Below, piece after piece: positions 10,113 to 26,186 of a DNA stretch of 64,000 nucleotides. Both the position numbers and the translations under genes were made by a program. The notes beneath the pieces were generated by a model. The model did not search any database, was not told where the DNA came from, and was given only the letters and a program-made list of their open reading frames with translations. Position 1 is the first letter of the stretch, and every line of letters begins with the position of its first letter. The DNA lies in the NCBI RefSeq assembly GCF_900105195.1, contig NZ_FNRX01000002.1, positions 1,302,001 through 1,366,000 of the forward strand, written 5' to 3'. The DNA is from Rhodococcus pyridinivorans (GTDB lineage: Bacteria; Actinomycetota; Actinomycetes; Mycobacteriales; Mycobacteriaceae).

Positions 10113-10155
10113 GTCTCGGGGAGGAGACACATTCATGGGGAGGACTGCGGGATGA
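10113..10155 (+). promoter_or_regulatory. Conserved leader, copy 1: hairpin/SD element and six-codon micro-ORF
   Basis: GTCTCGGGGAGGAGACA at 10113-10129 is an inverted repeat (GTCTC/GAGAC) whose loop and right arm hold a strong Shine-Dalgarno, GGGGAGG. Ten bases on, an ATG at 10135 opens a micro-ORF, MGRTAG, whose TGA (10153-10155) overlaps the ATG of the main gene at 10152. The identical 17-mer and the same six-codon, ATGA-overlap arrangement recur at 18349 and 26146 before two paralogues. Confidence 0.75.
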
Positions 10156-11681
10156 CGACGGTCGATGATCGAGGGCTCGACCCGTCCGACGCTCCGCGGC
10201 GCGCACCTGACCGTGCGCCCGCGGACGCGTCGCCCGGCACCGGTGTCAACCGGTGGAAGTGGCAGAACGTGTACGTGAAGAGGCTGTGCCTCACGGACGC
10301 GATCACCGTGGTCCTCTCCGTGATCCTGGCGCAGACCGTCCGCTTCGGCTACGAGGACCTACTCCGCGCCGGAGGTGGCGGTCAGCTCGATTACACGGTG
10401 GTATCTGCCGTCCTCATCGTGGCCTGGCTGGGCGCGCTGAGCGTCTTCCGTACGCGGTCGCGTCGCGTGATCGGCGCCGGCTACGACGAGTATCAGCGGG
10501 TCATCTCGGCGACGCTCGCCGTGTTCGGCACCATCGCCATCATCGCGCTCATCACCAACCAGCAGATCGCGCGCGGCTTTCTTGCTATCGCGTTGCCGGT
10601 GGGTCTTGCCGGCTTGCTGCTGTCGCGGTGGTTGTGGCGGAAGGTGATCGCGCGTAAGCGTGCTCGGGGTGAGTTCCAGACGTCGGTACTCGTGGTTGGT
10701 GGTGCGCGGGCGGTGCGGCACATGACCCGCACCTTCTCCCGGAAGGACGGGGAGGGTTACCGCGTCGTCGGTGTCTGCGTGCCCCGCTATTCGGGTGCGG
10801 CCGGGGATGTGATCGACGTCGACGGCCGGGAGATCACCGTCTACGGCGACGAACACTCGGTGGTCGAGGCCCTCAAACTCTCGGGGGCGGACACGGTGGT
10901 GGTCACTGCCACCGAGACCCTGGGCAGCGATGGTTTGCACGATCTGGTCTGGGAGCTCGAGCCGCTCGACACCGACCTGGTGGTCGCCACCGGCGTGGTC
11001 GATGTCGCGGGTCCGCGGATCGAGATGCGCCCGGTCGCCGGGTTGCCGCTCATCCACGTCGAGAAGCCGAGCTATCACGGGGCGAAGCGGTCGGGGAAGC
11101 GGATCTTCGATCTGGTCTTCGCCGGCGCGGCGCTGGTGGCCTTGGCGCCGGTGTTCGCCGTGGTCGCGCTGCTCATCAAGCTCGAGGACCGGGGTCCGGT
11201 CTTCTACAAGGCCGAGCGGATCGGTCTCGACGGTGAGCCGTTCGGGATGGTCAAGTTCCGGTCGATGGTCACCAATGCCGACAAGATGGTCGATCGGCTG
11301 CTCGCGCAGAACGAGGGTGCCGGCCCGTTGTTCAAGATGAAGGACGATCCGCGGGTTACGCGGGTGGGCAGGGTGATGCGGCGGTTCAGCATCGACGAGT
11401 TGCCGCAGTTCCTCAATGTGATTCGTGGGGAGATGAGTGTGGTGGGTCCGCGTCCGCCGTTGCGGCGTGAGGTCGAGGCCTACGACGGTCGGGTCAAGCG
11501 CCGGTTGTTGGTGCGCCCCGGCGTGACGGGTCTGTGGCAGGTCAGTGGCCGCTCGGATCTGTCGTGGGACGAGTCGGTGCGCCTGGACCTGTCGTATGTG
11601 GAGAACTGGTCGATGGTGAGCGATGTGCTGATCATCGGCAAGACCGTCAAAGCCGTGCTCGCCAGCGACGGCGCCTACTGA
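10152..11681 (+). CDS. Polyprenyl glycosylphosphotransferase (WcaJ/WbaP-like), paralogue 1
   Basis: 509 residues. It transfers a sugar-1-phosphate from a nucleotide sugar to a polyprenyl phosphate, the first membrane step of exopolysaccharide repeat-unit synthesis. The N-terminal third has four or five membrane segments (about residues 40-165). A Rossmann-like middle domain follows ([15 protein letters not shown]). The C-terminal PNPT catalytic domain starts at KRIFDLVFAGAALV and has [25 protein letters not shown] and [19 protein letters not shown], as in WcaJ. Which sugar is used is not visible. It is one of three paralogues here; from about residue 155 on its DNA is nearly the same as the copy at 26183. 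Expression probably passes through the micro-ORF leader. Confidence 0.92.
   Translation: MTTVDDRGLDPSDAPRRAPDRAPADASPGTGVNRWKWQNVYVKRLCLTDAITVVLSVILAQTVRFGYEDLLRAGGGGQLDYTVVSAVLIVAWLGALSVFRTRSRRVIGAGYDEYQRVISATLAVFGTIAIIALITNQQIARGFLAIALPVGLAGLLLSRWLWRKVIARKRARGEFQTSVLVVGGARAVRHMTRTFSRKDGEGYRVVGVCVPRYSGAAGDVIDVDGREITVYGDEHSVVEALKLSGADTVVVTATETLGSDGLHDLVWELEPLDTDLVVATGVVDVAGPRIEMRPVAGLPLIHVEKPSYHGAKRSGKRIFDLVFAGAALVALAPVFAVVALLIKLEDRGPVFYKAERIGLDGEPFGMVKFRSMVTNADKMVDRLLAQNEGAGPLFKMKDDPRVTRVGRVMRRFSIDELPQFLNVIRGEMSVVGPRPPLRREVEAYDGRVKRRLLVRPGVTGLWQVSGRSDLSWDESVRLDLSYVENWSMVSDVLIIGKTVKAVLASDGAY
10612..11680 (+). repeat. Long direct repeat, copy A (with 26643-27713)
   Basis: From the codon for the end of the last N-terminal membrane helix to the stop, this stretch is nearly identical at DNA level to 26643-27713, while the preceding 450 bases of the two genes differ clearly. 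The sharp change suggests gene conversion or a mosaic duplication. Confidence 0.7.
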
Positions 11682-11695
11682 CACAAGCTCGAGAA

Positions 11696-11731
11696 AGAAC
11701 GGCCTCGGGGTTTCGACTCCGGGGCCGTTCT
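11696..11731 (+). terminator. Hairpin terminator after glycosylphosphotransferase 1
   Basis: Arms AGAACGGCC and GGCCGTTCT pair perfectly, with further partial pairing of CGGGG and CTCCG inside. It begins 15 bases past the stop. Confidence 0.65.
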
Positions 11732-11807
11732 CGATCTCCGACACCCAACCGTGATTTGACTTTCCGCTGTGATGACCCGCACAGTATGTACGCACAGCGT
11801 TCGTGAC

Positions 11808-11822
11808 GTACGCAGTGCGTAC
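11808..11822. promoter_or_regulatory. Palindromic operator upstream of the MBL-fold lipoprotein gene
   Basis: GTACGCAGTGCGTAC is a perfect 7-1-7 palindrome 30 bases before the GTG start. A further half-site GTACGCA lies at 11788-11794, exactly 20 bases (two turns) upstream. The regulator is not identifiable from the window. Confidence 0.5.
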
Positions 11823-11851
11823 AGTTCTGATTCCCTCGGAAGGAACCTCCG

Positions 11852-12910
11852 GTGTCACGACGCTCATTCGAATTCGGCCGACTCCGCACTGCGGCAATAG
11901 TGGGGTCGGGTGTGCTTGCGCTCGCCCTCGCAGGCTGCAGCACCGGAGAATCCGCTGCTCAGGACACGGTCCAGGAAACGACGGTCTCGGACGGCTCTGC
12001 CTCGGACTCTGCCCACCCCGCGGCCGACGCTCCCGCCGAGGGAGAGATGCGCGTGACGCTGCTCGGCACGGGCAGCCCGGTGCCGAGCACCGAGCGCTAC
12101 GGCATGTCCACGCTGGTCCAGGCCAACGGTCTGAACCTCGTCTTCGATGCGGGGCGCGGAGCCACAGTCCGCCTGACGCAGGCCGGCGTTCCGGTCGGTC
12201 AGGTCGACGCCGTCTTCCTCACCCACTTCCATTCCGACCACATCAACGGTCTGTCCGACCTCTGGATGAGCAGCTACGTCCCGGCACTCGGTGGGCGCGA
12301 GGGCGCCTTCCAGCTCTACGGACCCGTCGGCGTCCGGAACATCGGCGACGGAATGCAGAGCACCTACCGCAACGACATCGACGTGCGCGTCGCGGACAAG
12401 GAAGTCGATCCCGCGACCACGCCGATCGAATCGCACGAGTTCGCAGAAGACGGCGTCGTCTTCGACCAGGACGGCGTCACCGTCACGATGTTCACCGTGG
12501 AGCACGATCCGGTCGGTGCGATCCAGCCGGCGGTCGGCTATCGCGTCGACTATGCGGGCAAGTCGGTGCTCATCAGCGGCGACACTGTTCCCACCGAGAA
12601 CGTCCTGAAGTTCGGTGAAGGCGTCGACGTGCTGGTGCACGAGGTCGCCGACTTCGAGGATCCGTCGGCGCTCCCCAGCGTGTACGCGCATCACACGAAC
12701 CCGCAGCAGGCAGGCGACATCTTCGAGCAGACCCAGCCGAAGATGGCCGTGTACAGCCACATCGTCAACGGCATCCCCGGCCGCGTCCCCGGCATCTCGG
12801 ATGAGATGCTCGTCGAACGCACCCGCGAGAACTACGACGGCCCACTGACCGTCGGCACCGACCTGATGACCTTCCTCATCACCGACGACGAAGTGCGCGT
12901 CGACAACTGA
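11852..12910 (+). CDS. Secreted lipoprotein with metallo-beta-lactamase fold hydrolase domain
   Basis: 352 residues from a GTG with GGAAGGA upstream. A signal peptide ends in the lipobox LALAGC, so Cys29 is probably lipidated and the protein sits on the outer face of the membrane. After a Ser/Ala/Asp-rich linker (30-65), the MBL domain starts at MRVTLLGTGSPVPS. The zinc motif is TH125-F-H127-S-D129-H130, with later ligands likely in TVEHD, ISGDT and YSHIVNG. Strand order and GTGSPVP resemble the RNase Z/arylsulfatase-type branch, not true beta-lactamases. The substrate is unknown. It is monocistronic, between a terminator at each side, with its own palindromic operator. Confidence 0.88.
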   Translation: MSRRSFEFGRLRTAAIVGSGVLALALAGCSTGESAAQDTVQETTVSDGSASDSAHPAADAPAEGEMRVTLLGTGSPVPSTERYGMSTLVQANGLNLVFDAGRGATVRLTQAGVPVGQVDAVFLTHFHSDHINGLSDLWMSSYVPALGGREGAFQLYGPVGVRNIGDGMQSTYRNDIDVRVADKEVDPATTPIESHEFAEDGVVFDQDGVTVTMFTVEHDPVGAIQPAVGYRVDYAGKSVLISGDTVPTENVLKFGEGVDVLVHEVADFEDPSALPSVYAHHTNPQQAGDIFEQTQPKMAVYSHIVNGIPGRVPGISDEMLVERTRENYDGPLTVGTDLMTFLITDDEVRVDN

Positions 12911-12926
12911 TCGACAGCACGGACCG

Positions 12927-12953
12927 AACCCCGCCGGCACCATCGGCGGGGTT
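12927..12953 (+). terminator. Intrinsic terminator of the MBL-fold gene
   Basis: AACCCCGCCG and CGGCGGGGTT form a 10-bp stem with a 7-base loop, followed by TTCG, 17 bases after the stop. Confidence 0.75.
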
Positions 12954-13016
12954 TCGCCGTGCGGTATCCGGGGTCATCTGGTCGATGTACCGCGTTTCCG
13001 ACGAGGAGGACCCGAC

Positions 13017-13454
13017 ATGGCGGCCAGCGTCTCCGACCGTTTCGACATCGACGCCACACCCGAGCAGGTGATGCGCGCCCTCGAGGATGTCGAGCGCATC
13101 CCCGAGTGGTCGTCGGCCCACAAGAGCGTCGAGGTGCTCACCCGGGACGACGACGGCCGGCCGCTCCGGATCCGCATGACCCTGTCGCTGCTCGGCTTCT
13201 CCGACACCCAGACCATCGAGCATTCGTGGACGGAGAGTTCGACGTCGTGGACGCTCGTCGAGAGCGGGATGCAGCGCAGCCAGGACGGGGAGTACGCCCT
13301 CGAACAGATTGCGCGCGGCACCCGGGTGCACGTCACCATGTCGCTCGAACCGAAGGTTCCGGTTCCCGGCTTCGTGCTGAAGCGCGGGCAGAAGCATGCG
13401 GTCGAAGCGGTCCGGAAGGGGCTGACCGAGTTCGTCCTGTCCAATTACGCCTGA
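13017..13454 (+). CDS. SRPBCC family protein (polyketide cyclase/dehydrase-like)
   Basis: 145 residues; ATG with GAGGAGG nine bases upstream. The START/Bet v 1-like pattern is clear: SDRFDIDATPEQVMRALEDVERIPEWS at the start (read as SDRFDIDATPEQ then VMRALEDVERIPEWS), curved strands in the middle, and a long C-terminal helix from PGFVLKRGQKHAVEAVRKGL. Such small cavity proteins bind lipids or hydrophobic ligands and are common in mycolate actinobacteria; no enzyme activity can be assigned. Its last 10 bases overlap the convergent histidine kinase gene. Confidence 0.85.
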   Translation: MAASVSDRFDIDATPEQVMRALEDVERIPEWSSAHKSVEVLTRDDDGRPLRIRMTLSLLGFSDTQTIEHSWTESSTSWTLVESGMQRSQDGEYALEQIARGTRVHVTMSLEPKVPVPGFVLKRGQKHAVEAVRKGLTEFVLSNYA

Positions 13455-14563
13455 CTCGCCGTCGGCAGTTCCAGAGTGAACCGGGCTCCGCAGCCCGGTC
13501 CCTCACTGTGCGCGTGGATGCGACCGGCGTGGGCTTCGACGAGTGCCCGCGCGATCGTCAGGCCGATGCCGCTGCCGCCGTGATTCCGGTCGCGGGCGGT
13601 GTCCGCGCGGTAGAACCGGTCGAAGAGGTGGTCGAGGTGATCGGGCGCGATGCCGGCGCCCGTGTCGGTCACGGTGATCTCCGTTCGGCCGCGGCCCAGG
13701 ATGCGAGTGGCGACGGTGACGTTTCCTCCTGCCGGTGTGTGCCGTAGGGCGTTGTCCAGCAGGTTCGCCAGCACCTGTCCGAGCCGGTCGGGATCGACCG
13801 TCACCGGCGCAGATTCGACGACCTCGGCCTGCAACGTCACGCCTTTGCCGTCGTACTGCTCGCGCACCGCGTCGACCGCCGTGGCGACGAGGGTGCTGGT
13901 GGTAGTGGGCACCCGATGGATGCGGGTGAGGTGCTCTTCCGCCCGGGAGACCGCGGTGATGTCCTGTGCCAGGCGGGTCAGCCGGTGGGTGGCGGCTCGC
14001 AGAATCTGCCGGGTGTCGTCGTCGAGAGTGCGGACGCCGTCCTCGAGTGCTTCCAGATAGGAATCGAGTGTGGCGATGGGTGTGCGCATTTCGTGCCCGA
14101 GGTCGGCGAGCATTCTGCGCCTTGTGATTTCGGTGGCTTCGAGGCGTCGTGCCAGCTCGTTGAAGCTGGTTGCCAGTTCGTCGAATTCATGGCCGAGGTC
14201 GGGGCTGGGGACGCGGGTGTCGTAGCGACCTCCGGCGATCTGCGCGGTGGAGGTGGTCACCGTGTCGAGCGAACGCTGGATCCGTCGCGCGATGTACCAA
14301 CTGACCGCCGAGGCCAACAGCACTGCGATCGCGACCGCCAGACCCCACGCGAGGACGATGGCCCAGGTGAAGGCTTCTTCGACGTGGGCGGCCTGGCTCG
14401 AATCGTGATCGATGCCCGCTTGTCCGAGATGGTCGTGGAAGATCCCGGGGGCGAGAGCGGACGCGACGAGCCATGCGCTGACGGCACATCCGACGACGAC
14501 GGCGACGAGCGCGAGGAACAGGCGGGTGCCGAAACTCGTCGTGCTGGGGGAGTGGGACGTCAT
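13445..14563 (-). CDS. Sensor histidine kinase, CopS-like
   Basis: 372 residues: two membrane segments (about 12-37 and 64-90) around a short external loop of roughly 25 residues with HDH and HEE, a HAMP domain (90-145), a HisKA box DLGHEMRTP with the phospho-acceptor His157, and an HATPase domain with NLLDNALRHTP, DTGAGI and GGSGIGL. The start ATG overlaps the response regulator stop (ATGA at 14560-14563), so the two are translationally coupled. The copper ATPase and DUF305 genes across the divergent promoter, plus a CopR-type box, suggest it senses copper; the small His-rich external loop would fit. That role is inference from context. Confidence 0.9.
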   Translation of the reverse strand: MTSHSPSTTSFGTRLFLALVAVVVGCAVSAWLVASALAPGIFHDHLGQAGIDHDSSQAAHVEEAFTWAIVLAWGLAVAIAVLLASAVSWYIARRIQRSLDTVTTSTAQIAGGRYDTRVPSPDLGHEFDELATSFNELARRLEATEITRRRMLADLGHEMRTPIATLDSYLEALEDGVRTLDDDTRQILRAATHRLTRLAQDITAVSRAEEHLTRIHRVPTTTSTLVATAVDAVREQYDGKGVTLQAEVVESAPVTVDPDRLGQVLANLLDNALRHTPAGGNVTVATRILGRGRTEITVTDTGAGIAPDHLDHLFDRFYRADTARDRNHGGSGIGLTIARALVEAHAGRIHAHSEGPGCGARFTLELPTASQA

Positions 14564-15255
14564 CGTCCTGTTCCCATCCGGTAGCCGACGCCGCGGACGG
14601 TGCGCACGAAACGTCCCTGGTTCGCGTCGTCGCCGAGTTTGCGGCGCAGATGCCCGATGTGCACATCCACGAGGTGGTCGTCACCGACCCAATTCTGCCC
14701 CCAGACGGCCGCGATGAGCTGAGCACGGGTGAACACGACTCCCGGGTCCTGCGCCAGGGCAGCGAGGACGTCGAACTCGGTGCGGGTGAGTGCGACCGGC
14801 GTGCCGCGCACGGCGACCTCCCGTCCGTCGACGTCGAGGGACAGCTCCCCGAACGTCCGCGCCTCCCGCCTCGCGGACGCTACGACCCGCGCGGTGGTCC
14901 GGGGACGACGCAGCATCGCTTGGATGCGGGCCATGAGTTCGCGCGGGCTGAACGGCTTCGTCAGGTAGTCGTCTGCCCCGACGGACAGACCGATCAGGGT
15001 GTCGACTTCCTCGGTGCGCGCGGTGAGCATCACGACGTACGCGTCGGAGAAGGTTCGCAGCTGCCGGCACACCTCGATACCGTCGAGTCCGGGTAGGCCG
15101 AGGTCGAGCACCAGGATGTCGGGGTCGACCTGCCGCGCGAGGGTCACGGCCTCGGATCCGTCGCCGGTGATCGTCACGTCGAAGCCGTCGCGTTCGAGAT
15201 ACGAACCCACGAGCTTCGCCAACGACCCCTCGTCCTCGACGACCATGGCTCGCAT
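14560..15255 (-). CDS. Response regulator, OmpR/PhoB family, CopR-like
   Basis: 231 residues from the ATG at 15255. The receiver domain has acidic residues in VVEDEG, the phosphorylation site Asp51 (LVLDLGLPG), Thr in MLTART and Lys in YLTKPFSP. A winged-helix output domain follows (LTRTEFDVLAALAQ, VDVHIGHLRRKL, VRTVRGVGYRM). In-frame ATGs at 15324 and 15336 would add 23-27 low-complexity residues; none of the starts has a strong ribosome site, so the start is uncertain. It precedes the kinase gene by an ATGA overlap. Likely regulon: the DUF305 and CopB genes, and itself, through the repeat at 15370-15389. Confidence 0.9.
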   Translation of the reverse strand: MRAMVVEDEGSLAKLVGSYLERDGFDVTITGDGSEAVTLARQVDPDILVLDLGLPGLDGIEVCRQLRTFSDAYVVMLTARTEEVDTLIGLSVGADDYLTKPFSPRELMARIQAMLRRPRTTARVVASARREARTFGELSLDVDGREVAVRGTPVALTRTEFDVLAALAQDPGVVFTRAQLIAAVWGQNWVGDDHLVDVHIGHLRRKLGDDANQGRFVRTVRGVGYRMGTGR

Positions 15256-15369
15256 CCGGGCGGTCGAGCTCGGGACGGGTGCGGATCCGCCGGAAGGTCC
15301 CGTCACACGGGCAGAAGAAGGCATGGGATCCATCATCGTCACCCGCAGAGGTGCTGACGATGCGCCCGC

Positions 15370-15389
15370 AGATCTTGAGCAAATCTTCA
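15370..15389 (-). promoter_or_regulatory. CopR-type box in the divergent copper promoter
   Basis: On the minus strand TGAAGATTT-GC-TCAAGATCT is a tandem 9-bp repeat. As I recall it, the CopR box of Corynebacterium glutamicum is TGAAGATTT-NN-TGAAGATTT; this site differs at two of 18 positions. It lies between the response regulator and the DUF305-CopB genes. Confidence 0.7.
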
Positions 15390-15436
15390 TGCGATCTCCA
15401 TCGGATCCCGGGAGTACACCCGCGAGGGTGGACATC

Positions 15437-16096
15437 ATGAACAAGAAGACTCTGGCTGCCGGTGCGATCGCGCTGGCGGTGACGTTCGCAGCGTCGGCGT
15501 GCAGTGATTCCGGTGGCGACGAAGCAACCACGGCGACCGCCACTTCGGCCCCGACATCCGCCGAGGCGAACTCCGCGCGGTTCGACCAGGACGATGTGAT
15601 GTTCTCGCGCATGATGATCCCGCACCATGCGCAGGCCATCGAGATGAGCGACATGCTGCTGGCAAAGGACGGCATCCCGGAGCCGGTGAGGGCGCTGGCC
15701 GAGCAGATCAAGGCAGAGCAACAACCCGAAATCGAGCAGTTCGAGGCATGGCTCCAGGAATGGGGCATGCCCATGCGCGGTGACGACGCTCCTGGAATGA
15801 ACGGCCACATGTCCGGCATGCCATCTGTCTCGGACATGCCGGGTATGGACGACATGCCGCACATGGACGGGATGATGAGCGAGCAGGACATGCAGGCACT
15901 GTCCGACGCGCAGGGCGTCGACGCGGCCCGCCTGTTCCTGGAGCAGATGATCGTCCACCATGAGGGAGCGATCGAGATGGCGCAGGACGAGATCGAGGAC
16001 GGGCAGTACCCCGAGACCGTCGAGCTGGCCCGCACCATCGCCGACACCCAGCAGAAGGAAATCGACACGATGCGTCAGTTGTTGACCACTCTGTAG
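15437..16096 (+). CDS. DUF305 lipoprotein, Met/His-rich, probable periplasmic copper-binding protein
   Basis: 219 residues from the ATG at 15437 (GAGGGTGG upstream). The signal peptide ends FAASAC, giving a lipidated Cys22. Two DUF305 half-repeats are visible, each with the HHxxAIEM pattern: MMIPHHAQAIEMSDM and QMIVHHEGAIEMAQDE. Between them is a Met/His/Asp-rich linker (MNGHMSG, MPGMDDMPHMDGMM) of the sort that binds Cu(I) outside the cell membrane. DUF305 proteins are often found with copper exporters and multicopper oxidases; the CopB gene follows 48 bases later. It is transcribed away from the CopRS-like genes, sharing their CopR-type box. Confidence 0.9.
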   Translation: MNKKTLAAGAIALAVTFAASACSDSGGDEATTATATSAPTSAEANSARFDQDDVMFSRMMIPHHAQAIEMSDMLLAKDGIPEPVRALAEQIKAEQQPEIEQFEAWLQEWGMPMRGDDAPGMNGHMSGMPSVSDMPGMDDMPHMDGMMSEQDMQALSDAQGVDAARLFLEQMIVHHEGAIEMAQDEIEDGQYPETVELARTIADTQQKEIDTMRQLLTTL

Positions 16097-16144
16097 CCGA
16101 TCCGCGTCGCGGGTTCGTCCCGCCGGCCGAGTCAGGAGCTGTCG

Positions 16145-18205
16145 ATGTCCCAGCAGGTGCACGAACACACCCACGAGCACGCCGGTCACGATCGTCACGC
16201 GGGGCACGGCGCCCACGGCGAGATGTTCCGGCGACGGTTCTGGGTCAGCCTGATCCTGTCGGTGCCGGTCGTGGTCTTCAGCCACATGGTCGCCGAGCTC
16301 TTCGGCTACCACCTCCCGGATGTTCCGGGCGTCGAGTGGATCCCACCGGTGCTGGGCACCGTCATCTTCTTCTACGGCGGCGTGCCGTTCCTGACCGGCG
16401 GCTGGGCCGAACTGCGTTCCCGCCGACCGGGGATGATGCTGCTCATCGCCATGGCGATCACGGTGGCCTTCGTCGCGTCGTGGGCCACGACTCTCGAGGT
16501 CGGCGGTTTCGACCTGGACTTCTGGTGGGAACTGGCGCTGCTGATCGTCATCATGCTGCTCGGTCACTGGCTCGAGATGCGGGCGCTGGGTTCGGCCTCC
16601 GGAGCACTCGAAGCACTGGCCGCGATGTTGCCGGACACCGCAGAGAAGGTCACCGACGATGGTGTCGTCGAGGTGCCGTTGCACGAAGTGTCCCTCGACG
16701 ATGTGGTGCTCGTGCGTGCCGGAGCGCGCGTGCCCGCCGACGGCACCGTCATCGACGGGACCGCCGAGGTCGACGAGTCGATGGTCACCGGTGAATCCAA
16801 GACCGTCACCCGCGACGTCGGCGACACGGTGGTCGCGGGCACCGTCGCCACCGACAGCGCGCTCCGGGTGCGGATCACGGCGGTGGGAGAGGACACCGCG
16901 TTGGCCGGCATCCAGCGCATGGTCGCCGATGCCCAGGCGTCCTCGTCCCGCGCGCAAGCGCTGGCGGATCGCGCCGCGGCCTTCCTCTTCTACTTCGCCG
17001 CGATCGCGGGTGCTCTCACCTTTGTCGTGTGGACGTTGCTCGGCAATCTCGACGAAGCGGTGGTGCGTACCGTGACCGTCTTGGTCATCGCCTGTCCCCA
17101 TGCGCTGGGTCTGGCGATCCCGCTGGTGATCGCGATCTCGACCGAGCGCGCAGCGCGCGCGGGTGTGCTCGTCAAGGATCGGCTGGCACTCGAACGCATG
17201 CGCACCGTCGACGCAGTGCTGTTCGACAAGACCGGCACCCTCACGCAGGGCAAGCATCAGGTCACCGGTGTCGTCGCGACGGCGGGAATCGACGAGGAAC
17301 ACCTACTCGCCCTGGCAGCTGCGGTCGAAGCCGACAGTGAGCACCCGGTCGCGCGAGCCATCGTCGCCGCCGCCGATGCCCGCGTCCCGTCGGCCGAGCG
17401 GATGGCGGTGACGGACTTCCGCTCGTTGCCCGGCCGCGGCGTGCGCGGACTGGTCGACGGTGTGGAGGTGACGATCGGCGGACCGTCCATGCTGTCGTCC
17501 CTGCAGTTGTCGGTGCCCGACGACGTCGCCGCAGTCACCGACGGGTGGGTGCGACGTGGTGCATCGGTGCTGCACGTTGCCTCCGACGGTCGGGTGCTCG
17601 GAGCCGTGGCGCTCGAGGACACCGTGCGCGACGAATCGCGGCAGGCCGTCGACGCCCTGCACGCGCGGGGCGTGAAGGTCGCGATGATCACCGGTGATGC
17701 CCAGCAGGTGGCCGACGCCGTGGCCGCCGATCTCGGCATCGACGAAGTGTTCGCGGAAGTGCTCCCGGAACACAAGGACGCGAAGGTCGCCGAATTGCAG
17801 AAGCGCGGGCACACCGTCGCAATGGTCGGCGACGGGGTCAACGACGCGCCTGCCCTCGCGCGAGCCGACGTCGGTATCGCGATCGGAGCGGGCACGGACG
17901 TCGCGATCGAGTCGGCCGGTGTCGTCCTCGCCGCGAACGATCCGCGAGCAGTGCTGTCGATCATCAAGCTCTCGCACGCGAGTTACCGCAAGATGTGGCA
18001 GAACCTGCTGTGGGCAACCGGATACAACGTCGTCGCCGTTCCGTTGGCGGCCGGTGTGCTGGCCTTCGCCGGTATCGCGATCTCGCCGGCCGTGGCCGCG
18101 GTGCTCATGTCGGCGTCGACGATCGTCGTCGCGCTCAACGCGCAGACGCTCAGGCGCCTCGATCTCGACCCCGGGCACGCTACCGACGGACGAGTTTCCC
18201 GATAA
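16145..18205 (+). CDS. copB: Copper-translocating P1B-type ATPase (CopB type)
   Basis: 686 residues. A short His-rich N-terminus (HEHTHEHAGHDRHAGHGAHG) replaces the usual CxxC metal-binding domains. The membrane metal site is CPH (Cys317-Pro318-His319), the mark of the CopB (P1B-3-like) branch; CopA has CPC. The phosphorylation site is DKTGT (Asp361), with TGES in the actuator domain, HP in EADSEHPVARA, and GDGVNDAPAL in the hinge. It exports copper ions from the cytoplasm using ATP. It forms a unit with the DUF305 gene and is probably induced by the CopRS-like system. CopB-type pumps have also been linked to silver, so metal range is not fixed by sequence. Confidence 0.93.
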   Translation: MSQQVHEHTHEHAGHDRHAGHGAHGEMFRRRFWVSLILSVPVVVFSHMVAELFGYHLPDVPGVEWIPPVLGTVIFFYGGVPFLTGGWAELRSRRPGMMLLIAMAITVAFVASWATTLEVGGFDLDFWWELALLIVIMLLGHWLEMRALGSASGALEALAAMLPDTAEKVTDDGVVEVPLHEVSLDDVVLVRAGARVPADGTVIDGTAEVDESMVTGESKTVTRDVGDTVVAGTVATDSALRVRITAVGEDTALAGIQRMVADAQASSSRAQALADRAAAFLFYFAAIAGALTFVVWTLLGNLDEAVVRTVTVLVIACPHALGLAIPLVIAISTERAARAGVLVKDRLALERMRTVDAVLFDKTGTLTQGKHQVTGVVATAGIDEEHLLALAAAVEADSEHPVARAIVAAADARVPSAERMAVTDFRSLPGRGVRGLVDGVEVTIGGPSMLSSLQLSVPDDVAAVTDGWVRRGASVLHVASDGRVLGAVALEDTVRDESRQAVDALHARGVKVAMITGDAQQVADAVAADLGIDEVFAEVLPEHKDAKVAELQKRGHTVAMVGDGVNDAPALARADVGIAIGAGTDVAIESAGVVLAANDPRAVLSIIKLSHASYRKMWQNLLWATGYNVVAVPLAAGVLAFAGIAISPAVAAVLMSASTIVVALNAQTLRRLDLDPGHATDGRVSR

Positions 18206-18348: not shown

Positions 18349-18390
18349 GTCTCGGGGAGGAGACACACTATGAGGGTTCTTCCGTCATGA
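18349..18390 (+). promoter_or_regulatory. Conserved leader, copy 2: hairpin/SD element and six-codon micro-ORF
   Basis: GTCTCGGGGAGGAGACA at 18349-18365 is identical to the elements at 10113 and 26146. Nine bases after the SD an ATG at 18370 opens MRVLPS, and its TGA (18388-18390) overlaps the main ATG at 18387. Confidence 0.75.
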
Positions 18391-20037: not shown

Positions 20038-20156
20038 TCTGCGTCTCCGGACTTTCCAGTGGGCGGGGCGCATCTCGATTGTCGAGGCGGGGTGAATTCA
20101 CGGGTGAGTTCTTACTCACGGGTAACATTTTGGTCCGGCGAACCGTTGTTCGACAT

Positions 20157-20309
20157 GTGAACTGGGTTTTTGTGCTGCTCGTCTCGTGGCTGGTGCTATC
20201 CGTCGCCGTCGCTGTGGTCTTCGGTCTGGTCGTTCGTGCCCGCGACGAACGTGAGCTCCCGCCGCCGCTCGACGAGGACGGTGAGGACGATATCCGTGAC
20301 GTCGGATAG
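20157..20309 (+). CDS. Small single-pass membrane protein
   Basis: 50 residues from the GTG at 20157. One hydrophobic segment, WVFVLLVSWLVLSVAVAVVF, is followed by a short basic stretch (VVRARDERE) and an acidic tail (DEDGEDDIRDVG), giving an N-out or N-in anchor with a cytosolic tail of mixed charge. No family recognised. Upstream are two inverted repeats (GTGAATTCAC and GTGAG-TTCTTA-CTCAC, around 20090-20118). The start is uncertain because longer in-frame versions exist, but these are basic and not protein-like. Confidence 0.5.
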   Translation: MNWVFVLLVSWLVLSVAVAVVFGLVVRARDERELPPPLDEDGEDDIRDVG

Positions 20310-20416
20310 CCGCTCGCCTCGCAGATGACCGAGTTTGCGACGGGTCCGTGACGGGAAGCCGATTTGCGACGAGCTTTCACGCAACTCGGAAACCATCGAT
20401 TCGCAGGACGGTACTC

Positions 20417-21337
20417 ATGGCTGAGCAAGACGTGCACACTAATAAGACCGATCAACTGAAGTTCCAGGACCCGACTACTCGCTATCCGTCCATCTCGCCT
20501 CCGAAGCAGGACCAGCCCGAGCCGGGCCTCGACGCCGACATGGTGCCCAAGGCCGACATCGGCGAGTTCTCGTATCGAGGCACTGGCCGGCTCGAAGGAC
20601 GTAAGGCACTGATCACCGGTGGTGACTCGGGCATCGGTGCCGCTACCGCCATCGCATTCGCGCGGGAGGGCGCCGACGTCGCGATCTCGTACCTGCCGGA
20701 TGAGGAACCTGACGCAAAGAACGTCGCTCGCATCATCAGCGAGAGTGGTCGTAAGGCGATCACGCTTCCCGGTGATCTGACGGACGCCTCGTTCTGCTCC
20801 GACGTCGTCGACCAGGCGGTCGAGCAGCTCGGCGGCCTCGACATCCTGGTCAACAATGCCGGAAAGCAGATTGCGGTCGAAGGGCTGGATGATCTGCCCG
20901 ACGATCAGCTCGAGCAGACTTTCCAGGTGAACATCCTCGCGATGTTCCGCACCACGCGCGCGGCGTTGAAGCATCTGCAGCCGGGTTCGACGATCATCAA
21001 CACCACCTCGATCGTGGCGTACCAGCCGTCGCCGGCGTTGATCGACTACTCGTCGACCAAGGCTGCGATCAACAACTTCACGAAGAACATGGCGACCCAG
21101 CTGGCGGAGAAGGGCATCCGCGTGAACGCGGTTGCGCCCGGACCGATCTGGACGCCGTTGCAGCCGTCGGACGGTCAGCCGAAGGAAGAGCTGCCCGAGT
21201 TCGGGCAGAACACTCCGCTGGGACGTGCGGGGCAGCCGACCGAACTGGCACCCGCCTACGTGTTCTTGGCGTCACCTGAGTCCAGTTATGTAGTGGGCGC
21301 GACGATCCACGTCAACGGCGGGATGCCCTCGCCGTAG
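20417..21337 (+). CDS. SDR family oxidoreductase, YhdG/YhxC-type long N-terminus
   Basis: 306 residues from the ATG at 20417 (MAEQDV). The first 50 residues are the polar, Pro-rich extension typical of the group that includes Bacillus YhdG/YhxC and E. coli YghA (DPTTRYPSISPPKQDQPEPG). The Rossmann motif is TGGDSGIGAATA, then NNAG, catalytic Ser in NTTSIVAYQ and Tyr-x3-Lys in YSSTKAA, and NGG at the end. These enzymes are often stress-induced general aldehyde/ketone or alcohol reductases; the physiological substrate is unclear. It is monocistronic and converges on a small unknown gene with a strong hairpin between. Confidence 0.9.
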   Translation: MAEQDVHTNKTDQLKFQDPTTRYPSISPPKQDQPEPGLDADMVPKADIGEFSYRGTGRLEGRKALITGGDSGIGAATAIAFAREGADVAISYLPDEEPDAKNVARIISESGRKAITLPGDLTDASFCSDVVDQAVEQLGGLDILVNNAGKQIAVEGLDDLPDDQLEQTFQVNILAMFRTTRAALKHLQPGSTIINTTSIVAYQPSPALIDYSSTKAAINNFTKNMATQLAEKGIRVNAVAPGPIWTPLQPSDGQPKEELPEFGQNTPLGRAGQPTELAPAYVFLASPESSYVVGATIHVNGGMPSP

Positions 21338-21354
21338 AACGAGCCGTAATCAAC

Positions 21355-21396
21355 GAGTCGTGCGCGCCAGTGAATCTCCACTGGCGCGCACGACTC
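21355..21396. terminator. Bidirectional terminator, 18-bp perfect stem
   Basis: GAGTCGTGCGCGCCAGTG and CACTGGCGCGCACGACTC pair perfectly around the loop AATCTC, between the convergent SDR gene and the gene at 21408. Confidence 0.85.
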
Positions 21397-21407
21397 ATTC
21401 TGGAGTT

Positions 21408-21785
21408 TCAGACTGCGCTGGATACAGCGTGCCGGTAAGTGCTTCCCCGGGCTGCCGAGATCGGCACGACAGAAGCAACGTCGGCCGAGGTTTCCGCCAG
21501 CGCGGCAAGGATCTGCTCGGGGCCGGCGCATGTGCTTGCGCACGTGATCCCTCGAGCGCGGAGCTTCTGAAGAGTGAGTGCTTCGGCGGCGGTGCAGTAG
21601 CCGTCGAGGATGTCCTCGGTGAGGATCGCGTAGTCCACCTCGCCTTCGAAAGCGGTGGTGGTCTCGATCCCCGCGAGGTCGAGGCGAGCCTGCAGTTCTG
21701 TCCACCGGTCGAGTGCGACGGTGCTGGAGGGGGTTCCGAGGAAAAGTACCCGTGCCGGTCGGTCCGAAAGTGATGATGTCGTCAC
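21408..21785 (-). CDS. Protein of unknown function, weak BRCT-like pattern
   Basis: 125 residues from a GTG with GGAG eight bases upstream. I do not recognise a family with confidence. The order RVLFLGTPSS, then LARGIET-like strand, DYAILTEDIL, AAEALTLQKLRARGITCASTCAGPEQIL resembles the alternating strands and helices of a BRCT domain (first strand, a hidden Lys/Ala helix before a GI strand, and a last helix). It is flanked by the bidirectional terminator, which supports a real gene. Downstream of position 110 the chain is low in structure. The upstream region 21786-22046 has nested hairpins, ACTCCC-GGTG-GGGAGT within AGGTGAA/TTCACCT. Confidence 0.5.
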   Translation of the reverse strand: MTTSSLSDRPARVLFLGTPSSTVALDRWTELQARLDLAGIETTTAFEGEVDYAILTEDILDGYCTAAEALTLQKLRARGITCASTCAGPEQILAALAETSADVASVVPISAARGSTYRHAVSSAV

Positions 21786-22046
21786 AGGCTGCTCCAGGGT
21801 GCGAGTAGGTCAGGTGAAACCGAATTGCCACTCCCGGTGGGGAGTTACACCTTCACCTGCGAAATGTGGTGTTTCACACTGTGTACAGGACTCGTTCACC
21901 CTCCGCTACCCGGGCAACTATCAGGAAACACGAATGTGACAGAAGTGGTTACGATTCCGCCCAGGTGTTTGGGACTTTCGTCCCGAAATTCTGGTCCAAC
22001 CACGCGAAAGCGACCAATCCTCCCGAAGCGCCGGGGCCGGAGTCGG

Positions 22047-22853
22047 CTACGACCTATGGGGAGGCCCGAGCACGACCGCGCCGGGACCGATCCCGAGCGG
22101 TAACGCAGCAAGAACCTCGATCACCGACCACGCCGTGATCGCAGACGTGCGACCGCTCGATGCCGAGTCGATCGCGTTCTCGAACGTCAGCTCGTACCGG
22201 CCGAGCGGCGACTCCCACTCGACGACGTGGCGCGTGTTTGCAGCGGCGGGGTCGGCAACGACCACCACCTCTACCCGGTCGAGCCCGAGCGTCGCGAGGG
22301 CGAGAGCCACCGACGAGTTCGAGGTTCGCGGAAAGGCCAGGGCGGCTTCTCGCGCCGATCCTCGGAAAACGGTGCGTTCTGCGTCCGGACGTTCTTCGAT
22401 GCCGAGCGCACTCGGTCGTTTGATCGTGGTGTGGGTGAGGCGTGCATCGCGGCTTCCTGCACGTGTCGCTGCGGCCAGAACATCGAAGCCGCCGATAGCG
22501 CCCGTCGGGAGCAGTACACGTCCTGGTCCGGAGCCGAACGGTTCCACATCGAAGCCGCGCTCGGCGAAGACGCCGCACGAACAGACAATGATGTCCTTAC
22601 CGCGTTTCACCACCTCGGGTATCAGGGCTCGAGCGGCGTCGACCGTGGCAGCTTCCACCACGATGTCGGCGACGTCGAATGCGGCGGAGGCCTCCTCAGG
22701 GCTGCTTCGTGAGTCCAACATGGCCGCGAGGCTCACATGCGGCACCACGTCGTCGCGCAGGGCGTCGATCACCGTCTGTCCGATCGCGCCGGTCCCGACA
22801 ACGCACACTGCTATCGGACGATGTTCGATTTCTTCGGGTGCCAGTTGCCTCAC
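22047..22853 (-). CDS. Aspartate dehydrogenase-like protein (NadX family)
   Basis: 268 residues starting at a GTG at 22853 behind GGAGG. A dinucleotide-binding start, AVCVVGTGAIGQTVIDAL, is followed by DIVVEAATVDAARALIPEVV, IVCSCGVFAE, LLPTGAIGGFDVLAAA and NSSVALALATLGLDRVEV. The GAIGGFD and NSSVA motifs belong to the L-aspartate dehydrogenase domain that makes iminoaspartate from aspartate with NAD(P), feeding NAD synthesis, or acts on related amino acids. No nad genes are near. The middle AMLDSRSSPEEASAAF is shorter than usual. Family assignment is fair; the exact substrate is not certain. Confidence 0.75.
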   Translation of the reverse strand: MRQLAPEEIEHRPIAVCVVGTGAIGQTVIDALRDDVVPHVSLAAMLDSRSSPEEASAAFDVADIVVEAATVDAARALIPEVVKRGKDIIVCSCGVFAERGFDVEPFGSGPGRVLLPTGAIGGFDVLAAATRAGSRDARLTHTTIKRPSALGIEERPDAERTVFRGSAREAALAFPRTSNSSVALALATLGLDRVEVVVVADPAAANTRHVVEWESPLGRYELTFENAIDSASSGRTSAITAWSVIEVLAALPLGIGPGAVVLGPPHRS

Positions 22854-23034
22854 GTCCTCCGCGGCATGCCGCCGCTCGTTTCCACGAAATACGGGCTCAT
22901 GGTACCGAGAGAAGGAATCGGCGATGTCTGATTCGCGACGTCGTCGTATCGCTCGTATTCCCTTTCACGGATCGGAATGTGTTGCTATGAGGGCAACTAC
23001 GGCGTCAGCGCACTACCGACAGCGGCAAGTCTGC

Positions 23035-23904
23035 TCATGCTGCCAAGAGCATCGTCTCCCGGGGCGGAGTGGCAATCCTGTGCGACGTCACTTGGCGGCA
23101 TGGGCATCGCACTGCACGTCCGAATTCGTCGTCGGGCAACCAGCCGTACTCGTCGCACCGACCGCATCGTGGCGGGAGTTTCGGGCGGGGTGGTTGCAGC
23201 GACTGCCAGAGCGGAATCCATGCAGCTGCGGAGCGAGCCGGGTCCCATGGTCGATGACGTTCGAGCGCGGCGCGGACGAGAGCATCCACGCCGTGAGTGT
23301 CGATCGATTGCTCGACGAGGGTGCGCTTCGCTGGTGTCAGGGTGTCGAACCGTGCAGACAGGCCGGCCCGGCGGCACGCCGTGGCCAATCGGTCGATGGG
23401 AAATGGCTGCTGCTCACAAGTTGCATCGCGGGTGAGATTTGTCGGGTGGGGAAGTGCAGCAGGTTCATTTCTTGGTTCAAGAACGGTTCGGGCGACCGGG
23501 GTGTCACCCCGCTCGGTCGTTCCTGTCACCCCGCGGCGCTCCGTCTTGTCACCTCGTTCAGAGCTGCGGGGTGACGACGTGTCACCCCGCTTCATCGACA
23601 GGTTGTACAGGACGGGGCGGCGGTCTTCGCGAGGAATTGTCGCCGCAATCCGCTCTTGATCGCCTTTGGAAATGAGGCCGAGAGCGGCGAGCGCTTTCAG
23701 GCAACGCTGCACCTGGCGTTCGCTGATGCGGGCGTACCCGGCGAGCTTTCGCACGGACGGATACGCATCCGCGCCATGTCGGGACGCATGATTGGCCAGG
23801 CCGAGCAGCACGACTGTCAGCGCTGGTGCCGAGGGCATGCCGGGTGGCGTGGGGGACGGAATTTCGGCGCGTTCGAGCGCCCAGGTGATCGCTTCGATGC
23901 TCAC
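23035..23904 (-). CDS. Helix-turn-helix protein with C-terminal Cys cluster, replication/plasmid-type
   Basis: 289 residues from a GTG at 23904. The N-terminal third (AYPSVRKLAGYARISERQVQRCLKALAALGLI, read as AYPSVRKLAGYAR and ISERQVQRCLKALAALGLI) is a winged HTH of the type found in phage, plasmid and ICE replication or transcription proteins. A polar linker with repeated RGD or RGVTGT motifs follows, then a helical part and a Cys cluster CGRCDEYGWL...RCPC that could bind zinc. Such genes are scattered in Rhodococcus genomes, often alone. No integrase, relaxase or attachment site is seen nearby, so it may be a remnant of a mobile element. Confidence 0.65.
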   Translation of the reverse strand: MSIEAITWALERAEIPSPTPPGMPSAPALTVVLLGLANHASRHGADAYPSVRKLAGYARISERQVQRCLKALAALGLISKGDQERIAATIPREDRRPVLYNLSMKRGDTSSPRSSERGDKTERRGVTGTTERGDTPVARTVLEPRNEPAALPHPTNLTRDATCEQQPFPIDRLATACRRAGLSARFDTLTPAKRTLVEQSIDTHGVDALVRAALERHRPWDPARSAAAWIPLWQSLQPPRPKLPPRCGRCDEYGWLPDDEFGRAVRCPCRQVTSHRIATPPRETMLLAA

Positions 23905-24212
23905 GATGTCACCTGCCCGTGGGTATGCTGACGCATGTTCGACTCCTTATCAGTCGGACATCCGGCCCGTCGCGATGCCAGTCGCGGCGGGCCATCTGTT
24001 TTGAGTTGTTCGCACGCACGTTCGGGTGTGGTTGATCATCTTGGCATCGGGACCAACGGGCGTCAACGGTCTCCGCTATGGACGACGCGTCTCAGGAAGG
24101 CGCACATTGTCCCCCGTTCGGATGAAAAACATGAGTGATTCAAGAAAGTGACGTAACGGAAGAGTCGGACGCCGCGAAGATGCAGTGTCAGTGCATCTCC
24201 GATTGGGGTTCC
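23905..24212. other. Divergent intergenic region with an orphan terminator-like hairpin
   Basis: No gene is supported in these 308 bases. The hairpin GGCCCGTCGCGA/TCGCGGCGGGCC (23964-23993, one G-T pair) is followed by ATCTGTTTT on the plus strand although no plus-strand gene precedes it. It could be an attenuator for the gene at 24213 or the end of a small RNA that starts near 23910. Confidence 0.5.
23964..24003 (+). terminator. Orphan intrinsic terminator or attenuator
   Basis: Twelve-bp stem GGCCCGTCGCGA/TCGCGGCGGGCC with loop TGCCAG, followed by a U-rich tract containing TTTT. It stands 210 bases upstream of the gene at 24213 and opposite the divergent HTH gene. Confidence 0.5.
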
Positions 24213-24548
24213 ATGAGTGAGCGTCCATTAGTCGACCATACGGCCGACACGATCCAGTTCCAGCGCGTCGATGACCGTACGTTACGTCGCCAGGCCCGTG
24301 CGTCTGTCGGGCTCGGGGTCGACGGTGACGACCGGTTGCGATCGTCGACCGGTCACCCAACTACGAAGCGGGTTGTGTTCAAGGAGAGGAATGGCCCAAA
24401 CTTGTGGCTCATTACCGCGATCGTGGCGTTGATGGCGGCAGTTGCGTTGTTTGCCGCAGGCGTGGCCGTGAATCAAGCCCGTGATTCGACACCGACGTAT
24501 CAATCGGTCTATGTCCCGGAAAACGTACTGGGCGGATCGCAGAAGTAG
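24213..24548 (+). CDS. Small membrane protein of unknown function
   Basis: 111 residues from the ATG at 24213 (GGGG six bases upstream). The N-terminal 65 residues are polar and charged (MSERPLVDHTADTIQFQRVDD), then one membrane helix (LWLITAIVALMAAVALFAAGVAV, written here in two parts: LWLITAIVALM and AAVALFAAGVAV) and a short outer tail ending LGGSQK. Single-pass topology with the N-terminus inside is predicted. No family recognised. A terminator-like hairpin follows at 24571. Confidence 0.55.
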   Translation: MSERPLVDHTADTIQFQRVDDRTLRRQARASVGLGVDGDDRLRSSTGHPTTKRVVFKERNGPNLWLITAIVALMAAVALFAAGVAVNQARDSTPTYQSVYVPENVLGGSQK

Positions 24549-24570
24549 CTGCACCGACGCGAAACGCAGT

Positions 24571-24607
24571 GAGACCCGCTGGCAGAGGGGAGGAGCCAGC
24601 GGGCCTC
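24571..24607 (+). terminator. Terminator after the small membrane protein gene
   Basis: GAGACCCGCTGGC and GCCAGCGGGCCTC form a 13-bp stem with one mismatch and an 11-base loop, 23 bases past the stop. A further small hairpin, GTGTTGC-GGGGAG-GCAACAC, lies at about 24640-24659. Confidence 0.65.
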
Positions 24608-24702
24608 AGGTGCAGCCGATTCCCGGGGAGGGAAACGGCGTGTTGCGGGGAGGCAACACACTTGAGAGTTTAACCAGAATCGGTGCCATGCGGCGCATCG
24701 AA

Positions 24703-24722
24703 GTGGGGACTTAAGTCCCCAC
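24703..24722. terminator. 20-bp perfect palindrome past the galU stop
   Basis: GTGGGGACTTAAGTCCCCAC is a perfect palindrome with no loop, between the 3-prime ends of the small membrane protein gene and galU. It may act as a terminator for galU or be a protein-binding site; there is no U tract on the galU side. Confidence 0.5.
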
Positions 24723-24741
24723 CGATGGGACTGCACCTTGT

Positions 24742-25665
24742 TCAGTCGGCGCCGGAGGTATCGAGATTCAGCCGCTCTTGAAGCCACTTCCGGAGTCCAT
24801 CGCCGTACTCCTCGCTGTCGAGTGCTGCATCGACGGCTGCGCGGAGGTAACCACCCGGGTTCCCTAGATCGTGGCGGGTGCCTCGATGTACGACGACGTG
24901 GACTGGGTGACCTTCTTCGATCAGCAGCGCAATCGCGTCGGTCAGTTGGAGTTCTCCCCCTGCGCCCGGCTCGATCCGACGTAGGGCATCAAAAATCTCG
25001 CGGTCCAGCAGATAGCGGCCGGCGGCGGCAAGTGTGGACGGAGCGTCGGCCAGAGCCGGCTTCTCGACCATGCCGCGAACGCGCAGAACATCCGGATTCG
25101 CGACGTTGGGTACTTCCTCGACCTCGAACACGCCGTATGAGCTCACCTGGCTCTTCGGAACGTCGATGGCGCACAGCACGCTTCCTCCGCGCTTGGCGCG
25201 GACGCGAGCCATCGTTTCCAGGATGCCGCTCGGTTGCACGAGATCGTCCGGGAGAAGAACGGCGATCGCGTCTTCGTCCGGCTCCAGAGCGGCTTCTGCG
25301 CAACCGACAGCATGGCCCAGGCCGAGTGGCTTCTCTTGGACAACCGATTCGACCGTGAGCAGGTTGGGCGCGCGCCGTACCTTCTCGAGCAACTTGAGCT
25401 TGCCCTTCGCTTCGAGGTGCTCCTCGAGGTCGAAGTCATCGACGAAATGCGCGACGACTCCGTCCTTTCCGGGGGCTGTCACAATAAGAAGCCGTTGAGC
25501 TCCCGAATGGGCAGCTTCCGTCGCGACGAGTTCGATGCCCGGCGTGTCGACCACCGGCAACAGCTCCTTCGGCACAGTCTTTGTGGCCGGCAGGAATCTG
25601 GTGCCCATTCCTGCCGCCGGTACCACTGCTGTGCGGAAAGCTTTGCGCACTCCTACTTCTTGCAT
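24742..25665 (-). CDS. galU: UTP-glucose-1-phosphate uridylyltransferase
   Basis: 307 residues from the ATG at 25665 with GAGGG upstream; the frame extends to 26070 but that part lacks protein character. The nucleotidyltransferase signature GMGTRFLPATKTVPKELLPV is at the start, VEKP and LLPDDLV in the middle, and LTDAIALL near the end, as in bacterial GalU. It makes UDP-glucose from UTP and glucose-1-phosphate in the cytoplasm. UDP-glucose is the substrate of the ugd product encoded 2 kb away and a likely donor for the glycosyltransferases. It is transcribed away from the third glycosylphosphotransferase gene, with a palindrome at 25745-25762 in its promoter. Confidence 0.95.
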   Translation of the reverse strand: MQEVGVRKAFRTAVVPAAGMGTRFLPATKTVPKELLPVVDTPGIELVATEAAHSGAQRLLIVTAPGKDGVVAHFVDDFDLEEHLEAKGKLKLLEKVRRAPNLLTVESVVQEKPLGLGHAVGCAEAALEPDEDAIAVLLPDDLVQPSGILETMARVRAKRGGSVLCAIDVPKSQVSSYGVFEVEEVPNVANPDVLRVRGMVEKPALADAPSTLAAAGRYLLDREIFDALRRIEPGAGGELQLTDAIALLIEEGHPVHVVVHRGTRHDLGNPGGYLRAAVDAALDSEEYGDGLRKWLQERLNLDTSGAD

Positions 25666-26145
25666 GGTTCTACCCTCGCCTCCCCTGTCGAGCGCATGAC
25701 CGCGCCGGAATACCCGCGAATGCACGGTCAAAACGTTGAGCAATGGTGAGATACATCTCACCTTCAAGATTCCGACCGTCAATCCCGCATCACGTGGGGG
25801 TCGGTAAGCGCAGTCTAGGGGCCGCCCTGCGGGTTCGCGAATCGGTGAGTGCGCCGAAAGTGCAAGATAGCAGGGAGGATTGCCTTCGCCGGGACCTGTA
25901 AACGCGGATCGCGTCGCCAAATGTAACCGCGCGGCACACTCAAGAAGCAGGTTCCATCTGGACGACTGTTCAAAGCTGCCAGATCTCGTAAGTAACGTTA
26001 CAGTCTCAACGAGCGTTTTCGCATAGGAGCGACACGCATACAACTGGAAGAACTGCGCCCGGCTGGGCACGCAACGGGCAGGTCACGCGACCGGGGAGGG
26101 TACGCGGATCGGGTCCGGCGTTGCTTGTTCGTGCGAGCAGTAGGT
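25666..26145. other. Divergent intergenic region galU / glycosylphosphotransferase 3
   Basis: About 480 bases with no supported gene. It contains the strong palindrome at 25745-25762 near galU and a short GTAACGTTAC palindrome at 25992-26001 on the other side. No riboswitch-like fold was recognised. Confidence 0.6.
25745..25762. promoter_or_regulatory. 18-bp operator-like palindrome upstream of galU
   Basis: GGTGAGAT-AC-ATCTCACC is a perfect 8-bp inverted repeat with a 2-base centre, 80 bases upstream of the galU start. The size and symmetry suit a GntR- or TetR-type dimer. No copy was seen elsewhere in the window. Confidence 0.5.
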
Positions 26146-26186
26146 GTCTCGGGGAGGAGACAACGATGTGGGTGGTTGGGCTATGA
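26146..26186 (+). promoter_or_regulatory. Conserved leader, copy 3: hairpin/SD element and six-codon micro-ORF
   Basis: GTCTCGGGGAGGAGACA at 26146-26162 is identical to the two other copies. Eight bases after the SD an ATG at 26166 opens MWVVGL; its TGA (26184-26186) overlaps the main ATG at 26183. The leader is intact although the gene behind it is frameshifted. Confidence 0.75.

Follow-up and report, generated by a model that had tools for sequence, protein, structure and literature searches.

A hairpin-borne Shine-Dalgarno sequence and a six-codon coupled reading frame precede paralogous glycosylphosphotransferase genes in Rhodococcus

Results

Three paralogous genes share one leader

A 64,000-nt stretch of the Rhodococcus pyridinivorans genome (assembly GCF_900105195.1, contig NZ_FNRX01000002.1, positions 1,302,001 to 1,366,000, hereafter called the window) contains three paralogous genes for polyprenyl glycosylphosphotransferases, each preceded by the same kind of leader. 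It consists of a 17-mer, GTCTCGGGGAGGAGACA, which carries a Shine-Dalgarno sequence (SD1) within a small predicted hairpin, followed by an upstream open reading frame (uORF) of exactly six codons that ends on the start codon of the main gene (Table 1). This leader is a real, selected and lineage-specific element for translation, and we propose, with a probability of roughly 0.62, that it acts as a natural bicistronic leader by termination and re-initiation.

Exact copies of the 17-mer start at 10113, 18349 and 26146, and the start codon of the uORF (uATG) follows after 5, 4 and 3 nt, respectively, in agreement with the initial annotation, which had placed an identical sequence 3–5 bases before an ATG at these positions. 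The six-codon frame that it had described, with a TGA overlapping the main start as ATGA, was present at all three loci (main starts at 10152, 18387 and 26183).

Table 1. Positions, in the window, of the leader elements and of the genes that follow them
Feature	Position	Strand	Evidence
17-mer hairpin/SD1, copy 1 (GTCTC-GGGGAG-GAGAC)	10113..10129	+	exact match; 23-nt fold −8.4 kcal/mol, z −3.95
six-codon coupled uORF MGRTAG, TGA inside ATGA	10135..10155	+	sequence, leader comparison
SD-like GGGGAGG in uORF 1, possible second SD (SD2) of main start	10137..10143	+	surrounding 9-mer −10.7 kcal/mol with anti-SD
polyprenyl glycosylphosphotransferase copy 1, 509 aa	10152..11681	+	PF02397, PF13727, TIGR03025
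17-mer hairpin/SD1, copy 2	18349..18365	+	exact match
six-codon coupled uORF MRVLPS	18370..18390	+	sequence, leader comparison
polyprenyl glycosylphosphotransferase copy 2, 508 aa	18387..19913	+	PF02397, PF13727, TIGR03025
17-mer hairpin/SD1, copy 3	26146..26162	+	exact match
six-codon coupled uORF MWVVGL	26166..26186	+	sequence, leader comparison
polyprenyl glycosylphosphotransferase copy 3, 458 aa, C-terminal frame break	26183..27559	+	both Pfam domains; Bac_transf 116/179 positions

The leader is rare in the source genome. With up to three mismatches allowed, the window held these three matches only (100 shuffles gave 0.35 on average, and one shuffle reached three), and the whole 5.26-Mb source genome contains the 17-mer at three sites only, even when two mismatches are allowed. 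A 464-kb sample of that genome was then scanned, with 255 genes picked by length and by GC content at third codon positions, and with starts sought within the first 120 codons of each open frame. A six-codon, SD-led, coupled uORF was found at the three target genes only. Candidate SD-led uORFs of 2–23 codons whose NTGA coincides with a potential start numbered 21 in the same sample; the target genes account for four, and 14 of the remaining 17 open with GTG. Other coupled uORFs, outside the six-codon form, may therefore exist in the source genome.

The leader is found in one genus

Among 18 Rhodococcus genomes, 42 sites matched the 17-mer with at most two mismatches (21 exact, five with one mismatch and 16 with two). 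All the exact sites and two of the five one-mismatch sites precede glycosylphosphotransferase genes, which defines a set of 23 leaders (17-mer with at most one mismatch before such a gene) from 12 of the 18 genomes. The other 19 sites, which are L018, L026 and L029 with one mismatch and all 16 two-mismatch sites, were excluded; none was at a glycosylphosphotransferase among the matches listed, the letters being inspected for eight of the 16. Two of them, L026 (G012) and L029 (G002), lie about 0.7 kb from a leader, on the opposite strand and before an ORF of 20–22 codons, and a two-mismatch site, L096:3782 (G009:C29), is followed by ATGAGG upstream of an open frame other than a glycosylphosphotransferase.

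A non-exhaustive scan for two peptide patterns found nine matching loci, which include the close relatives Rhodococcus sp. CH91, R. coprophilus, Rhodococcus sp. 105337 and R. gordoniae. No plasmid copy of the leader was seen in a megablast search with window positions 10060–10400. Outside the genus, none of 283 sampled genomes of the family had the exact 17-mer, and there were two one-mismatch matches (L031 and L032); in a 296-genome sample of the class, the exact 17-mer occurred in the source genome only. In these samples of family and class genomes, the 17-mer was thus found only in one genus. The initial annotation had suggested looking across actinobacterial genomes for the 17-mer near such genes and for a six-codon ORF behind it. 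The six-codon ORF was indeed kept, in 22 of the 23 leaders, but the 17-mer did not extend, in the samples, beyond Rhodococcus.

Length and stop position are conserved

Exactly six codons and an NTGA overlap on the main start were kept in these 22 leaders, with 13 different uORF sequences, so that the proposal that length and stop position are conserved, rather than sequence, was upheld. An absent or variable uORF before most homologues carrying the 17-mer, named beforehand as evidence to the contrary, was not what we observed. The distinct peptides are MGRTAG, MGRTVG, VGRTAG, MRVLPS, VRVLSS, MRILAS, MRVNPS, MRVGAR, MRVGSR, MRVVRL, MRTKAR, MWVVGL and MWVVAL. They vary, as had been claimed, but they are not entirely unrelated, since all 13 uORFs have NGG as second codon and orthologous copies share peptides. 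Start codons varied within narrow limits in the 23 leaders (ATG or GTG for the uORF; ATG, GTG or TTG for the gene), and the overlap was ATGA or GTGA in 21 leaders and TTGA in one; the remaining leader is fused in frame. The spacer between 17-mer and uATG ranged from 2 to 6 nt, with a single orientation of the 17-mer. Two more loci carry altered forms: in a divergent paralogue (L052, G010:C11), the loop of the hairpin reads TGAGGG and the uORF, still ATGA-coupled, has five codons, and at L063 (G009:C7) the 17-mer and leader are degraded.

A tree was built from at most 240 N-terminal residues of 32 rows, with L052 and L063 included and the short, internally deleted copy 3 of G015 left out. The 24 rows carrying the leader or its derivatives (21 six-codon, one fused, one five-codon and one degraded) fell on one side of a branch with support 88/83. 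Outside were five relatives without it (G001, G004, G006, G014 and G017) and three outgroups. When copy 3 of G015 was included, the tree was poorly resolved (that row sat on a branch of 10) and the six-codon label alone needed four changes. The leader is clustered in one clade, with moderate support. In the five near relatives outside this clade, an SD lies directly before the start and no SD-led uORF was found. Together with the split in the tree, this makes the uORF and hairpin look like a single gain, placed after an older SD and ahead of the main start; such a gain, followed by copying along with the paralogues, would have moderate support.

Changes on the tree were counted for 22 of the 23 leaders, one short row being left out, and for the uORF columns in 21 rows. 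The spacer between 17-mer and uATG changed length at least six times, as against once for the uORF (twice with the five-codon form). No change was counted in columns 1–16 of the 17-mer and two in column 17, versus one to eight in each of the 12 columns just upstream. Inside the uORF, the TG of the start was unchanged and its first position varied between A and G only, which preserves a start. The GG of codon 2 (columns 5–6) was also unchanged, and the other columns before the stop changed one to four times each. No change affected the TGA, but its columns belong also to the main start and to its second codon.

Short coupled uORFs exist before other homologues. At 33 loci, where the last six candidate starts were surveyed, ATG uORFs ending on NTGA starts without a strong SD included MEVKA (five codons, g10), MRKGLIT (seven codons, g24) and MGRK (four codons, L069 and L070). 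The sister genes L057 and L056 have longer uORFs (16 codons with ATG and eight codons with GTG, respectively) with no SD match. Among the ATG uORFs at the starts surveyed, only MEVTA (L076, GTGAT) had an SD match of at least five bases. These uORFs were not counted as the same device. MGRK is ATGA-coupled and stands, in two close species, before a glycosylphosphotransferase paralogue that is about 50% identical.

The second codon is NGG

Codon 2 reads AGG, GGG or TGG in all 13 distinct six-codon uORFs, versus seven of 105 SD-led starts of the sampled source genome; AGG makes up 0.18% of the codons in the genes of these 105 starts. Either NGG represents the purines of SD2 or an early NGG codon matters by itself, and both fit the sequence equally. 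According to one report, NGG codons near the start of a frame have been tied to drop-off of peptidyl-tRNA in E. coli, although in a large transgene screen AGG and NGG went together with high output (PMC12204400).

The SD core is predicted to lie mainly in the hairpin loop

The 23-nt stretch bearing the hairpin is predicted to fold at −8.4 kcal/mol (z −3.95), and the 106-nt leaders as a whole have ordinary stability (z 1.19, −1.24 and −0.40). Predicted stem probability was at least 0.85 in 18 of the 23 leaders, and in these 18 the paired fraction of the SD1 core was 0.20–0.29. The core would therefore be mostly displayed in the loop, not buried. This departs from the initial annotation, by which GTCTC and GAGAC could fold over the SD: the stem is predicted, but most of the SD core lies in its loop. 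Pairing of SD1 with an anti-SD whose letters were not read from the genome was computed at −12.5 kcal/mol, and if complete it would nevertheless pull the stem apart. With the same anti-SD, stretches inside the uORFs pair at −5.6 to −10.7 kcal/mol, values that are weak in several cases and have no shuffled control. Main starts had predicted paired probabilities of 0.27 to 0.94.

No Rfam 15 family matched the window at gathering score, and a scan of positions 9800–10200, upstream of copy 1 only, found no sigma-70-type promoter. The strength of SD1 argues for a leadered transcript. Further upstream, AAGTAACGTTACAGTCTCAA is common to the regions preceding copy 3 (window 25990–26009) and a gene of G009 (L053). 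GTAACGTTAC is perfectly palindromic and might serve as a promoter or operator. Upstream of copy 1, GTAACGCTC is present twice (10021–10029 and 10054–10062).

Discussion

A candidate bicistronic leader

From the architecture and its conservation, we infer that the uORF is translated and that re-initiation is the main supply of translation of the gene. SD1, in the loop of the small hairpin, would load ribosomes onto the uATG; these would read six codons and terminate on the TGA overlapping the main start. A purine-rich stretch inside the uORF would then retain the terminating ribosome, or only its 30S subunit, which would re-initiate at the main start. The peptide would be irrelevant, and what would count are distance, frame and NTGA overlap. 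The likely effect would be to fix or cap the output of the enzyme and to keep the main start free of structure. The enzyme concerned carries out the step at which undecaprenyl phosphate is committed to the synthesis of polysaccharide.

Several observations weigh against this reading. The stem is weak in five of the 23 leaders, with predicted probabilities of 0.04–0.51. Each uORF contains a putative SD-like stretch, so that ribosomes may also start directly on the gene, and the stretch of the MGRTAG type, GGGGAGG, 8 nt from the main start, looks strong enough for it. In copy 1 of R. gordoniae, a 1-nt insertion abolished the separate uORF, and the gene's own frame is now open from the uATG onwards; the uORF of L052 has an SD of four bases only, by exact match to the anti-SD. 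The GTCTC arm and the loop are invariant beyond what re-initiation needs. Moreover, the 23 leaders come from a small number of independent lineages, and copies have probably exchanged sequence. At least four of them stand before broken genes (copy 3 of G000, copy 1 of G008, copies 1 and 3 of G015), so their conservation says little; copy 1 of G008 and copy 1 of G015 were each detected in two pieces, and copy 3 of G015 is the short, internally deleted one. Two more genes, copies 1 and 3 of G003, are cut by contig ends.

Other readings of the leader

The invariance of nearly the whole 17-mer makes a bound regulator possible. An RNA-binding protein or a small RNA could mask SD1, and the coupled uORF would relay the repression to the gene, much as RsmA acts at the psl leader of Pseudomonas. 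This would be compatible with the bicistronic leader, and we regard it as a minor but tangible possibility. In its favour, columns 1–16 are unchanged, beyond the need of an SD or a stem alone, the hairpin on its own has the folding energy and z-score given above, and GGA occupies positions 3–5 of the hexaloop, its place in the ANGGAN loop (PMC7652899). However, the first loop base is G instead of the A of ANGGAN, so that the loop GGGGAG does not conform, and L052 has a different loop. CsrA, which the shape of the loop made the obvious candidate, was rejected as the binder: its family was absent from 18 of 18 genus genomes, by a search aimed at CsrA with no other binder sought, and the control search detected it in three of 14 known genomes. 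A more elaborate relay, in which a hypothetical Rhodococcus RNA-binding factor reads the SD hairpin, the NGG codon meters ribosomes and one leader sets several paralogous enzymes, seems to us doubtful.

The constancy of the second codon could also be explained if the leader lowered expression. SD1 and the uATG would capture ribosomes, the early NGG would waste them, and the gene would be started weakly and directly from SD2, which would keep the enzyme low. The NGG excess over other SD-led starts, the scarcity of AGG, the unchanged GG on the tree and the putative SD-like stretches in all uORF types are consistent with this. Yet NGG may be merely the purines of SD2, AGG and NGG were tied to high output in the transgene screen cited above, and such a role needs neither a stop exactly on the main start nor a constant length; we find it unlikely. 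That the leader was simply inherited by duplicates, with an incidental uORF, is suggested by the position of all carriers on one side of the 88/83 branch and by copies 1 and 3, which are nearly identical in large part and have probably undergone exchange. It is very improbable, given that flanks and inner uORF changed often whereas the 17-mer, the TG of the uORF start, the frame and the stop stayed constant, and that length changes fell in the spacer and hardly any in the uORF. Finally, a transcription factor might recognise the inverted repeat GTCTC-N6-GAGAC as its operator on the DNA, which would make the translation features secondary; the 5-bp arms are perfect and do not vary among the 23 leaders. 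But the repeat holds SD1, 2–6 nt before the uATG and in one orientation in all 23; this fixed place fits an RNA role better, and we give the operator hardly any credit.

Relation to known systems

The principle of a coupled leader is already known; a published description of the conserved six-codon form was not found among the titles and abstract openings listed. Closest are the coupled RTGA small ORFs of mycobacteria described by Shell et al. 2015 (PMC4633059), likewise short unannotated ORFs with a TGA inside the RTG of the next gene. In an example given there, the peptide is not conserved but the coupling is, and an SD embedded in the upstream ORF is suggested. A TGA overlapping an RTG start occurs in 21 of the 23 leaders, and the length (six codons in 22 of 23, five in L052) falls within their 5–50 codons. 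Their ORFs, as described, are on leaderless transcripts and encode 5–50 aa, whereas here an invariant hairpin-borne SD is proposed to load the uORF, which always has six codons and is common to paralogues within a single gene family.

The uPPE2-PPE2 pair of Mycobacterium tuberculosis also has an SD-led uORF with an AUGA overlap, and its downstream gene is reported to depend on uORF translation, mainly by termination-reinitiation (PMC11260477). uPPE2 is described there as lying under a B12 riboswitch, unlike the window, with its lack of Rfam matches. Overlapping gene pairs, 13 of 14 in one account, are a precedent for the mechanism (PMC6728339). Bicistronic design cassettes (Mutalik 2013, cited in PMC10367133) are similar in having a short fore-cistron, which there ends with a second SD before the gene and whose translation opens the start region; these are engineered, with a fore-cistron of 62 bp, whereas the present leader is natural and has six codons. 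Short leader ORFs were proposed as ribosome loaders, in Actinobacteria among others, by Korolev et al. 2016 (PMC4833913), but the leader genes reported there stand clear of the structural gene, most often by 10–11 bp, in contrast to the NTGA overlap seen here. At the psl exopolysaccharide leader of Pseudomonas, too, a hairpin lies at the SD of an exopolysaccharide operon, and repression through translational coupling is named as a CsrA mechanism (PMC7652899). That leader, as described, needs RsmA/CsrA and has a base-paired SD, whereas in Rhodococcus CsrA is absent and the SD is mostly in the loop.

The leader can be seen as a naturally occurring equivalent of engineered bicistronic designs; its ORF is very short, and it recurs across paralogues and species. 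Relatives that lack it, and one naturally fused copy, are natural controls. It would allow selection on a coupled leader to be tested for length, stop position, and second SD or NGG codon. The leader is also relevant to how Rhodococcus controls the first step of polysaccharide synthesis, which consumes undecaprenyl phosphate, and to the annotation of start codons in these genes.

The glycosylphosphotransferase genes and their surroundings

Assignment of the three proteins rests on Bac_transf (PF02397) and CoA_binding_3 (PF13727), found in all three; TIGR03025 was above cut-off for copies 1 and 2, the copies run. Bac_transf is incomplete in copy 3, whose frame is broken close to the C-terminal end. 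The proteins of copies 1 and 3 differ in their N-terminal part but hardly at all between about residues 155 and 440, a pattern that suggests exchange between the paralogues. Beside the polysaccharide genes, a 6263-aa ORF (window 42374–61165) encodes a giant non-ribosomal peptide synthetase, with condensation, AMP-binding and carrier domains in a sampled 2000-aa stretch, and an ISL3 family transposase lies nearby at 38181–39503.

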